From Lachnospiraceae bacterium (GTDB lineage Bacteria > Bacillota > Clostridia > Lachnospirales > Lachnospiraceae): 40,758 nucleotides of DNA. How positions within the stretch are numbered: the first letter of the stretch is position 1; every line of letters begins with the position of its first letter. The DNA is taken from the NCBI GenBank assembly GCA_022793195.1, contig JAAWCJ010000028.1, positions 1 to 40,758 of the forward strand. Direction: 5' to 3'. A program made the position numbers and the translations under genes. The notes under the pieces are model-generated. The model worked only from the letters and a program-made list of their open reading frames with translations. It was not told the DNA's origin and searched no databases. This document shows positions 12,660 through 28,383 of the stretch, in pieces.

Positions 12660-12930
12660 CAAAAGAGGGCGGCGAGAGATAAGGCAATTCTGATACCTAA
12701 CTGGCGCCCCTGCGTGTCCCTGCTTTTGTCCGATAGGCAGATTTTGCAGGTTTTGTGAGCATAGCGGCGTCTGTCCCGCTGACCAGTTTCTATGGAAGCG
12801 GCGGCAGACGACAAAAAGCGGCGGAGCAAAACCCAAAAATCAACGTGGACAAAAGAAGGGACACGCAGGGGCGATGGATAGGTATAAACATATAAATTGT
12901 CTATATTCCTCGGCCGCCCTCTTTTATTAT
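12656..12930. repeat. Large fold-back element A (MITE-like or structured RNA) between convergent genes
   Basis: Its ends are 18-nt inverted repeats with one mismatch (12656-12673 and 12913-12930, inner part AGAGGGCGGC/GCCGCCCTCT). Inside, a 27-nt arm at 12705-12731 pairs with 12847-12873 with one mismatch. Further matching pairs are ATACCTA/TAGGTAT just outside that arm, GGTTTTG (12749-12755)/CAAAACC (12827-12833), and CGTCTG..CCGCT (12768-12780)/AGCGG..CAGACG (12797-12810). The 275 bp thus fold almost end to end. The left end starts in the deoR stop codon and the right end is 11 bp from the stop of the convergent DUF819 gene. Both ends carry a GC stem followed by T's outward, so it can act as a bidirectional terminator. 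No open frame looks real. No clear target-site duplication is visible. Confidence 0.8.
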
Positions 12931-25125: not shown

Positions 25126-26382
25126 ATGCTTGAAAATATAAGACTGTCCTTTCAGGGAATCTGGGCCCACAAGCTCCGCTCCATTCTGACCATGTTAGGT
25201 ATTATCATCGGTATTGGTTCCATTATCGCCATTGTTTCCACCATCAAGGGAACCAATGAGCAGATCAAACAAAATCTGGTGGGTTCTGGAAACAATGCGG
25301 TAAACATCCAACTTTACCAGGGGGATTGGCCTTTTGAAATGGCTTATCAAAGCCCTCCCGACGGAGTTCCCGTCATAAGCAGTGAAGTTCTGGAGGAAGT
25401 ACAGGCACTTTCCGAGGTGTCGGTGGCTTCCCTCTACTATACCAGAAATGAATATGACGCCGTGTTCAATGGCAATCTAAGTTTAAACGGCGGAAATATC
25501 CTGGGTATTGATAAACATTACCTGGATGTATACGGATACCAGGTCACCATGGGCCGCGGTTTTACCGAGAAAGATTTTACCGGTGGCAGAAAGGTGGCCC
25601 TCCTGGATAAAATCGCTGCCTCCAACTTGTTCCAGGGAGAAGATTCCATCGGAAAAACCATCGAAATCAAGGGGGAACCCTTCACAGTCATCGGGCTGAT
25701 TGCCCAAAAAGCCGGTTTTGAGCCGGTTATCAATTCCCTGGAAGATTATGAACGGTATGCCGCCAGTTATTCCAGCGGCATGGTTTGTGTGCCTGACAGC
25801 ATCTGGCCCATTCTGTACCGTTACGACGAACCGCAGAACCTGGTGGTTCAGGCCGTCACCACAGACGATATGACTGCTGCCGGTGAAAAATCCGCGGATA
25901 TTTTAAACAGTTATCTGATGGTGTCCGATGAAACCATCCGCTACAAAGGGCAGGATCTGTTGGAACAGGCTGCCAAGCTCCAGGAGCTCTCCGCCTCCAC
26001 CAACCGCCAGCTAATCTGGATTGCCAGTATTTCCCTGCTGGTGGGCGGTATCGGCGTTATGAATATTATGTTGGTGTCCGTCACGGAACGGACCCGCGAA
26101 ATCGGCCTGAAAAAAGCCCTTGGGGCCAGAAAAACCCGTATCCTCGGGCAGTTCCTGACGGAGGCCGCCGTGCTGACCGGCATGGGCGGTATCCTGGGAA
26201 TCGGAGGAGGCATTGGGCTGGCATATGTGATTTCCAGCCTGTCCCAGGCCCCGGTGGCCATCAGTATTCCGGCCATTATCATTGCCGTCGTATTTTCCAC
26301 TCTCATCGGAATCATTTTCGGGATTATCCCGTCGGTAAAAGCGGCGAATTTGAACCCCATCGACGCGCTGAGGCACGAGTAA
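25126..26382 (+). CDS. MacB-like ABC transporter permease
   Basis: A 418-aa permease of the MacB/FtsX type without fused ATPase. A first membrane segment (about 20-42) follows the amphipathic MLENIRLSFQGIWAHKLRS. A large extracytoplasmic domain (about 45-280) and three C-terminal segments follow. The family motif GIGVMNIMLVSVTERTREIG, the coupling-helix-like KKALGA and PSVKAANLNPIDALRHE at the end are typical. GGAGGTG precedes the ATG, 11 bp after fusion protein 2. It completes a fusion protein-ATPase-fusion protein-permease operon. The substrate is not evident; peptides, lipids or toxins are typical for this class. Confidence 0.92.
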   Translation: MLENIRLSFQGIWAHKLRSILTMLGIIIGIGSIIAIVSTIKGTNEQIKQNLVGSGNNAVNIQLYQGDWPFEMAYQSPPDGVPVISSEVLEEVQALSEVSVASLYYTRNEYDAVFNGNLSLNGGNILGIDKHYLDVYGYQVTMGRGFTEKDFTGGRKVALLDKIAASNLFQGEDSIGKTIEIKGEPFTVIGLIAQKAGFEPVINSLEDYERYAASYSSGMVCVPDSIWPILYRYDEPQNLVVQAVTTDDMTAAGEKSADILNSYLMVSDETIRYKGQDLLEQAAKLQELSASTNRQLIWIASISLLVGGIGVMNIMLVSVTERTREIGLKKALGARKTRILGQFLTEAAVLTGMGGILGIGGGIGLAYVISSLSQAPVAISIPAIIIAVVFSTLIGIIFGIIPSVKAANLNPIDALRHE

Positions 26383-26395
26383 GCTATCCTTTTTA

Positions 26396-26729
26396 AGCCT
26401 CCCCGCCAGCGCGGCAAAAATGATGCCCCTGGCCCGGGAGCGGCTGTCAAATTTTGTGAAGGTTTCGCGTACTGCGCATTGGCAGGGATATTAGAAGTTC
26501 TTAATGTTCTGTGTAACACCCAGCAATTTCCGGACAGGACGTCCGGAAAAGGCTTATGCCGCCATGGACGGCGGGTCATAAGCCGGTTGCAAGGGAGTTT
26601 CCGAACCAGAGTCAGAACATTTAGAAGTTCAATATCCCTGTCACCGGCGCAGGAAGTGAACCTTCACAAATTTGATAGCCGCTCCCGGGTCAGGGGGATT
26701 TCTTTTTTTGCCGTGTCGGCAGGGAGGCT
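26396..26729. repeat. Large fold-back element B (MITE-like or structured RNA) between convergent genes
   Basis: The 334 bp fold on themselves. Outer arms 26396-26420 and 26705-26729 match at 21 of 25 positions, with two of the differences being G-U pairs. Going inward: CCCGGGAGCGGCT (26433-26445) pairs perfectly with 26677-26689; 26447-26464 pairs with 26659-26675 with one bulge; CAGGGATATT (26483-26492) pairs with 26631-26640; TGTTCTG (26505-26511) with 26613-26619. The apex branches into two hairpins, TTTCCGGAC/GTCCGGAAA (26527-26549) and GGCTTATG.CCGCC/GGCGG..CATAAGCC (26551-26584). The right end overlaps the stop codon of the convergent phosphate transporter gene and the left starts 14 bp after the permease stop. 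No real open frame is present. G-U pairs and changes that keep pairing hint at an RNA-level structure. Confidence 0.8.
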
Positions 26730-28383
26730 ATAGTTCGTCTTTTACGTACCCCGCAATGTTGTAGGCATGGTCTGAAATCCGTTCCAGGTTTCCGATGATA
26801 TCCAGGAATATCACCCCGCTTTCGGGAAGGCACTCATATCTTGCCAGCCTGGCAACGTGTTTATCCCTCAGCTCCTCTTCCGTGCTGTCCACCAAATCTT
26901 CAAACCGGATTACTTCCCGGATATTCTCCACGTCTTCCTGCTTTCTGGCTAAAACCGCATGTTCCACCGCACCGACGGCATAGGAATAAATCAGCTTCAA
27001 GTCCTCCTGGCCCATGGGCGAAAACCGGATTTCCCTCTGAATTTTACTCTCGGCCAGTTCCGCAATATTTTCCGCATGATCTCCAATCCGCTCCAGGTCG
27101 CTTACCGTATAAAGAAGATTCTTTACCTGCTCCGACTGTCTCTCCATCAGTGAAAGGTTGCTGACTTTCACCAGATATCCAGTCAAAGAATTTTCCATCA
27201 AATTGATGGTCTTTTCCTGGGCAAATATCTTCTCTACCGCTTCTCTGCTGCCATCCATCACAGCCTGAAGCCCCAGTTTTACGGTGTCAAGAGCCAACAT
27301 CCCCATACGGACCACCTCCCGTTTAGCCGTTTCGATGGCAAAGGAAGGATTCTCCAGGATACGGTCATCCAGATGAGACAGGATTTCCTGCTCTTTGGTC
27401 TCTTCCGCCTTCACCTTTTTTTCCCGGACAATCTTCTCTGAAAGCGACACCAGTTTTCCTGCAAACGGAAACAAAAGAATGGTATTACTTACATTAAATA
27501 CGGTATGAAAAACAGAAATCTGCGTACTGGTAACAGGAGCCGCCGCCCACCCCCGGTTCACCTGGAACAAAAAGAACATCACTGTGCCGGCAAATGCCGC
27601 TCCGATCACATTGAACAAAAGATGGATGACTGCCGCCCTTCTGGCTGTCCGGTGGGCGCCTGCACCTGCCAGAAGCGCTGTCACGCAGGTGCCGATATTC
27701 TGGCCCAGGGTAATATAAACCGCACAGTTCCAGTTGACGACACCATTCATGGCAAGGGTCTGTAAAATCCCCACCGATGCCGAAGAGCTCTGAATCACCG
27801 CCGTGACCACTATCCCGGCCAGGATTCCAAAGATGGGATTCCTCCCCAGGACGGAAAAAGCTTCCGCAAATACCGGGGCATCCCGGTATGGCTTAACCGC
27901 CCCGGACATAAAACTTAAACCCACGAACAAAAGGCCGAAGCCCACCAAAATGCTTCCGGCCTCCTGTTTCTTCTCCTTTTTTGCAAACAACAGAAAAAAG
28001 GCCCCAACCCCAATCAGCACCGGGGCAAAAAACTCCGGTTTCATGGCCTCTCCCCATTCGCTCATGGAAACAATCCAGGCCGTCACCGTTGTCCCGATAT
28101 TAGCGCCCATGATCACTCCCACTGCCTGGGATAAAGATAAAATTCCAGCATTGACAAAGCCTACCACCATCACCGTAGTGGCGGAACTGCTCTGTATAAT
28201 GGCCGTAATCACCGCTCCCAAAAGAATCCCCAGGATTCGGCTATCCGTCATGTACCCCAGCATCCGCTTCATGCGGCCCCCGGCCGCCTTCTGGAGGCCG
28301 TCTGCCATAATATTCATTCCATATAGGAACATCCCCAGGCCGCCAATAAATTCAAACAGCAGTTTTACATCATTCAGTGTCAT
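26728..28383 (-). CDS. Na+/phosphate cotransporter with C-terminal PhoU domain
   Basis: A 551-aa protein. The N-terminal half has the two inverted Na/Pi cotransport repeats, each with the signature IIQSSSATT (about 63) or VIQSSSASV (about 198), and about eight to nine membrane segments. From about residue 340 the rest is a soluble helical PhoU-like domain, with LLYTVSDLERIGDHAENI and the second EXXXD-type LERISDHAYNIAGY. The protein likely imports phosphate with sodium and senses or tunes this through the PhoU part. GAGGAGAAATCA precedes the ATG. It follows the coiled-coil ABC permease by 109 bp without a clear terminator. The fused form is common in Firmicutes. Confidence 0.92.
   Translation of the reverse strand: MTLNDVKLLFEFIGGLGMFLYGMNIMADGLQKAAGGRMKRMLGYMTDSRILGILLGAVITAIIQSSSATTVMVVGFVNAGILSLSQAVGVIMGANIGTTVTAWIVSMSEWGEAMKPEFFAPVLIGVGAFFLLFAKKEKKQEAGSILVGFGLLFVGLSFMSGAVKPYRDAPVFAEAFSVLGRNPIFGILAGIVVTAVIQSSSASVGILQTLAMNGVVNWNCAVYITLGQNIGTCVTALLAGAGAHRTARRAAVIHLLFNVIGAAFAGTVMFFLFQVNRGWAAAPVTSTQISVFHTVFNVSNTILLFPFAGKLVSLSEKIVREKKVKAEETKEQEILSHLDDRILENPSFAIETAKREVVRMGMLALDTVKLGLQAVMDGSREAVEKIFAQEKTINLMENSLTGYLVKVSNLSLMERQSEQVKNLLYTVSDLERIGDHAENIAELAESKIQREIRFSPMGQEDLKLIYSYAVGAVEHAVLARKQEDVENIREVIRFEDLVDSTEEELRDKHVARLARYECLPESGVIFLDIIGNLERISDHAYNIAGYVKDEL

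Follow-up and report, generated by a model that had tools for sequence, protein, structure and literature searches.

What is the large fold-back sequence that separates two convergent genes in a Lachnospiraceae genome, and should it be regarded as an RNA, as a dispersed repeat, or as both? The element occupies positions 26396..26729 (+) of the window, by which we mean the whole 40,758-nucleotide stretch analysed (contig JAAWCJ010000028.1, assembly GCA_022793195.1). It fills the gap between the ORF of a MacB_PCD/FtsX permease, which ends at 26382 (25126..26382, +), and a convergent ORF encoding a Na/Pi cotransporter with a PhoU domain (26728..28383, −). ORFs and Pfam domains thus agree with an earlier, sequence-only reading of the window, which had placed the element between an exporter permease and a phosphate transporter and its right end in a stop codon; the codon is the TAG of the transporter, at 26730-26728. 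The branched fold-back described there is real. Folded end to end, the + strand reaches -216.4 kcal/mol, where shuffled sequences average -112.8 (sd 5.5; z -18.9; 0/100 as good), and the − strand gives a weaker fold (-193.2 kcal/mol, z -16.5). Nested stems with about 115 bases per side, recovered also as inverted repeats I1 and I4, are formed by a left long arm (26396..26511, +) and a right long arm (26613..26729, +), the inner limits of both, taken from the minimum free energy pairing, being approximate. They are topped by two apex hairpins: hairpin 1 (26530..26546, +), with the loop AGGAC and its GGA at 26537-26539, and hairpin 2 (26551..26584, +; inner hairpin 26559-26574), with the loop AUGGAC and its GGA at 26566-26568. 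Elsewhere in the window, two tRNA genes stand at its start (122-212 and 407-492, − strand), and a long inverted repeat with 39-base arms, 87% complementary and 115 bases apart, lies at 12693-12885; this is possibly the other fold-back element of the earlier reading, and no Rfam family matches it at the gathering cut-off.

The earlier reading could match the element to no RNA family that it could name; an Rfam search supplies one. Cmscan places RF01731 (TwoAYGGAY) at 26479..26644 (+) with 93 bits against a cut-off of 43 (E 3.9e-15), spanning model positions 1-168 of 168. The assignment of the window element to the TwoAYGGAY family is firm, and a match over the full model length rules out an unnamed RNA family. 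RF01731 belongs to the same Rfam clan, CL00106, as E. coli CsrB (RF00018). TwoAYGGAY has been rated as a probable RNA, and one that is probably not cis-regulatory, with occurrences in the human gut, gamma-Proteobacteria and Clostridiales (PMC2864571), unlike its Rfam type, which is Cis-reg; CsrA binding was predicted for it in 2014 from motif matches (PMC4333381), additional covarying pairs or a longer helix have been reported (PMC11701678, PMC7657543), and it serves as an example of hairpin stability (PMC11661157). Listed in 2010, it is still without a demonstrated function in the accessible parts of the literature examined. The same parts of the papers that name it describe neither a dispersed palindrome nor a genome-wide link to csrA, the excerpts listed as matches for CsrA and Lachnospiraceae hold nothing on a link between TwoAYGGAY and CsrA, and a search pairing CsrA with miniature inverted repeats or repetitive elements found no paper.

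Covariation among homologues, which had been proposed as the evidence that would support an RNA, is present in apex hairpin 1. With one copy per genome (41 copies tried, 39 genomes with the motif, the first motif being used regardless of pairing), 258 of 273 pairs are Watson-Crick and 3 are G-U; column shuffles average 102 with a maximum of 124, and slid arms give at most 86/234. This strongly covarying apex also bears out the earlier view that the branched structure is something beyond a plain terminator. Apex hairpin 2 is looser, with A-G at the second pair in 9/37 genomes. Of 196 apex hairpins, 167 carry GGA within or at the loop and 3 carry UCC, the matches having been chosen by a model that is itself aware of the loop. 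In the window copy, the GGAs of the two loops (26537 and 26566) are 29 nt apart, within the 10-63 nt over which a CsrA dimer bridges two sites (PMC7652899), and the sequence UACAAGGAUGUA, present in copies of G018, G100 and G210, is near the CsrA SELEX consensus RUACARGGAUGU (PMC4347634). Loops without GGA recur, often in hairpin 1 only; they are mostly of ACGA types (ACGAU in G018, G032, G033 and others), and GGA-less loops are found in L036, L047, L052, L057 and L104 of G018, L039, L056 and L116 of G032, and L040 and L046 of G033. Such loops count against a CsrA decoy because they would be unexplained if CsrA is the ligand. Over the genome the loop motif was counted 547 times and its reversed pattern 345 times, a comparison that is uninterpretable as evidence with coding bias uncontrolled.

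Several differences between the long arms had been seen to keep pairing through G-U, and selection on RNA structure had been suggested on that ground. In the window copy this stands as a tendency (7 G-U vs 3 A-C in 113 aligned arm pairs) and falls as a significant excess (binomial p 0.34). The arms of 68 copies have 263 G-U vs 235 A-C (p 0.23), and those of one copy per genome, chosen by best palindrome score in 40 genomes, 126 vs 152, so that a G-U excess in the arms is unsupported overall as evidence of an RNA. Within the 40-genome set, A-C is in excess in the outer arm (99 G-U vs 132 A-C, p 0.035) and the inner arm has 27 vs 20 (p 0.38); over all 107 copies the inner arm has 83 vs 49 (p 0.004), a figure that related copies may inflate. 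Selection on an RNA would be expected to favour G-U over A-C on the strand that is transcribed. Terminator-like hairpins in the same loci (n=91) show 41 G-U vs 18 A-C (p 0.004), different from the arms (Fisher p = 0.0009), and arm pairing is weak evidence for RNA selection because, unlike these hairpins, the arms have no overall G-U preference. When copies are divided by their neighbouring genes, with p values that are too small because copies within a genome are related, those sense to both neighbours (n=17) have 65 G-U vs 36 A-C (p 0.005), antisense copies 83 vs 71 (p 0.38), all tandem copies, read on the transcribed strand, 136 vs 119 (p 0.32), convergent copies 76 vs 121 (p 0.002) and divergent copies 54 vs 54. 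The step from G-U pairing to RNA selection is mostly unsupported; in its favour are the 17 sense copies, whose excess speaks for RNA selection and against template switching.

Covariation in the arms is nonetheless real: in eight chosen copy pairs, which overlap, 32 double Watson-Crick changes were counted against about 4 expected if the changes were independent, two of the pairs having none. Template switching in replication produces reverse-complement arms and multi-base compensatory changes (PMC8794818); it accounts for the overall pattern in the arms better than RNA selection would by itself, with the sense copies leaving room for both, and the arms are better read as a DNA palindrome than as proof of RNA selection. 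TwoAYGGAY hence offers a case in which strong covariation, commonly accepted as proof of selection on an RNA, occurs in arms whose behaviour is largely that of a DNA palindrome.

The co-occurrence of TwoAYGGAY with csrA is strong. Among the window's genome and 60 relatives, TwoAYGGAY is found in 8/61 genomes, with 1 to 20 matches each; CsrA is found in all 8, and in 39/61 over the cut-off (p 0.04). A sample of the window's family has CsrA in 52/54 TwoAYGGAY genomes vs 184/348 overall (Fisher p 5.5e-14), and a class sample of 371 genomes, of which 15 were assigned to the window's family from listing order, has it in 24/29 vs 107/356 outside that family (p 1.2e-9); these Fisher values ignore ancestry, and the samples share some genomes. 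TwoAYGGAY genomes are counted here at E 0.001 (over curated cut-offs, 52/348 in the family and 26/371 in the class sample), the cross-tables for CsrA and flagellin were compiled by eye from match lists, and copy counts in these large scans are low, at most 7 candidates per genome being scored under stricter filters. Seven positive genomes in total lack CsrA, some of which are not incomplete: G201 and G352 in the family sample, each with a single copy (that of G201 close to the end of a contig, that of G352 in a single-contig genome), and G552, G593 and G631 (80-88% complete), G648 (95%; its TwoAYGGAY match is below the cut-off) and G690 (98%) in the class sample. Four of the latter five belong to one family, f45, in which only 5/9 positives have CsrA. 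Flagellin is found in 53/54 TwoAYGGAY genomes of the family sample and so tracks the element as well as CsrA does, suggesting that the link may be to motile lineages; since CsrA (184/348) and flagellin (185/348) nearly coincide there, the two are inseparable in that sample. Controls with CsrA, namely E. coli, B. subtilis and T. maritima, have no TwoAYGGAY. In the window's genome, csrA (PF02599 at 69 bits) adjoins fliW, and the locus includes the genes for FliS and FliD. FliW is known from B. subtilis as a protein antagonist of CsrA. The same species is reported to have a CsrB-like sRNA (PMC4347634), which would give a precedent for an RNA antagonist alongside FliW. Seen in several families and in two large samples, the csrA link makes the 2014 suggestion of CsrA binding directly testable in FliW-bearing species.

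Dispersal is the second property of the family. The window's genome has 14 RF01731 matches over the cut-off, all 14 on the strand bearing GGA in both loops, and further partial ones by blastn; the outer left arm is absent from blastn matches to other copies, the larger of which start at query 48-81 of 334. Many identical dispersed copies had been held to point to a MITE; the copies are dispersed, they are diverged rather than identical, and RNA family and palindrome both apply. The window copy is also present in the sister genome G007, whose transporter protein is 96% identical; G002, G003 and G008 have no TwoAYGGAY and, by eye, a different sequence after the transporter. The flanks of the 13 other copies were sought in G007 and found on both sides for 10, on one side for 2 and on neither for 1. 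Of 11 comparable sites, the window site included, G007 carries the element at 2 (window, L033) and, at another 2 (L024, L032), a short hairpin whose outer arms are the same; 7 (L020, L022, L023, L025, L026, L027, L030) have no core, differences that may be gains or losses. Some absences may be deletions, because G007 carries another hairpin at L020 and L030 and retains part of an arm at L027. Copies vary also in their make-up. L193 (G000:C55:11450-11779) and L194 (G000:C55:24577-24898) both carry, at one and the same position next to apex hairpin 1, about 120 inserted bases that hold further hairpins, one long hairpin being common to both; against RF01731, L193 reaches no more than 38.5 bits and L194 goes undetected at E 0.01. 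L195 (G000:C5:36950-37009) is a lone two-hairpin apex without long arms.

Some further arrangements were noted among the copies. L033 (G000:C24) contains an inserted hairpin, about 100 bases long, which is missing from its G007 ortholog, L055 (G007:C52), the two being 96% identical over the left 476 bases and 93% over the right part. Homology between L026 (G000:C53) and L029 (G000:C13) reaches 165 bases left of the core, at 87% over 395 bases, and reflects either duplication of a larger unit or another repeat that adjoins the element. In three genomes, two copies face in opposite directions at a distance of about 340-460 bases, at G018:C47:139778(−)/140187(+), G018:C33:53805(−)/54268(+), G071:C123:25808(−)/26152(+) and G241:C69:180277(−)/180638(+).

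An element so dispersed, with its arms as terminal inverted repeats, could be a selfish MITE-like repeat whose apex serves its own movement or replication and has no cellular RNA function, the CsrA link being inherited or due to horizontal spread among motile bacteria. The missing cores at 7 of the 11 sites in G007, the placement of copies without orientation bias relative to genes, the arms without overall G-U preference, and the 94% identity of L025 and L194 in both core and arms, on different contigs, are all as such a repeat would have them. A consistent target-site duplication is absent among 108 copies: direct repeats of at least 4 bases at the ends occur in 24 vs about 18 expected and of at least 6 bases in 2 vs about 1.5, so that plain insertion with target duplication is not supported, and the 7-base direct repeat seen by eye at L194 was picked post hoc. 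Given in addition loops that match the CsrA site and a CsrA association that recurs in other families, we consider a purely selfish repeat unlikely.

The position of the window copy suggests another role, in which a long stem with U-tracts on both sides ends and stabilises the mRNAs of both convergent genes, the apex being incidental. The site lies between convergent genes, and scanning 26300-26820 found two terminator-like GC stems vs 0.7 expected in shuffles, one with a U-rich tail within the outer right arm (26682..26709, +) and one with a U-tract within the outer left arm (26416..26441, −); no sigma-70-like promoter was found in the same interval. Such short GC-rich stems with U-tracts stand on both strands of the outer arms, as parts of the much larger stem. 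Gene orientation was assigned heuristically from ORFs, for 77 copies out of 107 (30 unresolved). In the window's genome 7/13 resolved copies are between convergent genes (10/14 by a looser ORF rule), as a terminator or 3'-end protector would predict, whereas over all genomes only 21/77 are convergent and 15/77 divergent; conserved loops and a covarying apex, moreover, are unnecessary for termination, and as an account of the family this role is distinctly improbable. The same assignments weigh on the decoy: of 41 copies between same-strand genes, 17 have GGA on the sense strand and 24 on the antisense strand (sense in 14/29 by the looser rule), and the lack of a sense bias counts against it because passive co-transcription would need sense placement.

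REP elements and attC sites are single-stranded DNA hairpins that are recognised by protein. A conserved loop recognised likewise in DNA would agree with the near absence of wobble in apex hairpin 1 and with arms whose G-U and A-C are about equal, fitting selection on, or copying of, DNA pairing, but template switching could yield the same pairing (PMC8794818) and the CsrA match would be a coincidence, making this the least probable of the explanations, and a very improbable one.

On balance, and by a modest degree of confidence, we favour the view that the window feature is a copy of TwoAYGGAY, a dispersed palindromic element with a paired predicted CsrA site, whose copies act as a decoy. CsrA binding is the best-supported of the candidate functions of TwoAYGGAY. 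The + strand would be transcribed by read-through from a neighbouring gene, or from a promoter not found in 26300-26820; the two apex loops, 29 nt apart, would hold one CsrA dimer, and the copies would jointly draw off CsrA alongside the protein antagonist FliW. The arms would be a DNA palindrome with complementarity kept largely by template switching, and the outer arms of the window copy may in addition serve both convergent genes as a two-way terminator. More tentatively, and with more doubt than belief, we suggest that CsrA in these bacteria is buffered by a spreading palindrome family, in which each copy supplies one CsrA-dimer site, copy number (1 to 20) sets the decoy dose, persistence is mainly in csrA lineages, stems are kept by template switching and selection acts mainly on the loops.

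Set against known systems, the window copy resembles TwoAYGGAY as modelled in being a full-length covariance-model match with two adjacent hairpins atop a long stem and a second loop AUGGAC; it differs in its first loop, AGGAC, one base short of the AYGGAY consensus by the missing pyrimidine, in pairing that extends past the 168-position model to 334 bases, and in a hairpin 2 that is paired where 9/37 genomes have the mismatched A-G. With bidirectional intrinsic terminators it can be compared for the terminator-like GC-rich stems with U-tracts on both strands of its outer arms and for the convergent genes, but over 200 bases and another two hairpins are enclosed by the stem, and many of the other copies have tandem or divergent neighbours. 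Like MITEs and other small dispersed palindromes, TwoAYGGAY is short, multi-copy and built of inverted repeats, with presence and absence between sister genomes; unlike MITEs, it is without consistent target-site duplication, and its arms vary between copies while the apex is conserved. The CsrB/RsmB sRNA (RF00018) is of the same clan and is likened to it here as a proposed CsrA decoy with GGA loops; the window copy, over 26300-26820, shows no promoter of its own, and whereas E. coli has a single sRNA gene for CsrB, TwoAYGGAY is many copies with two sites each.
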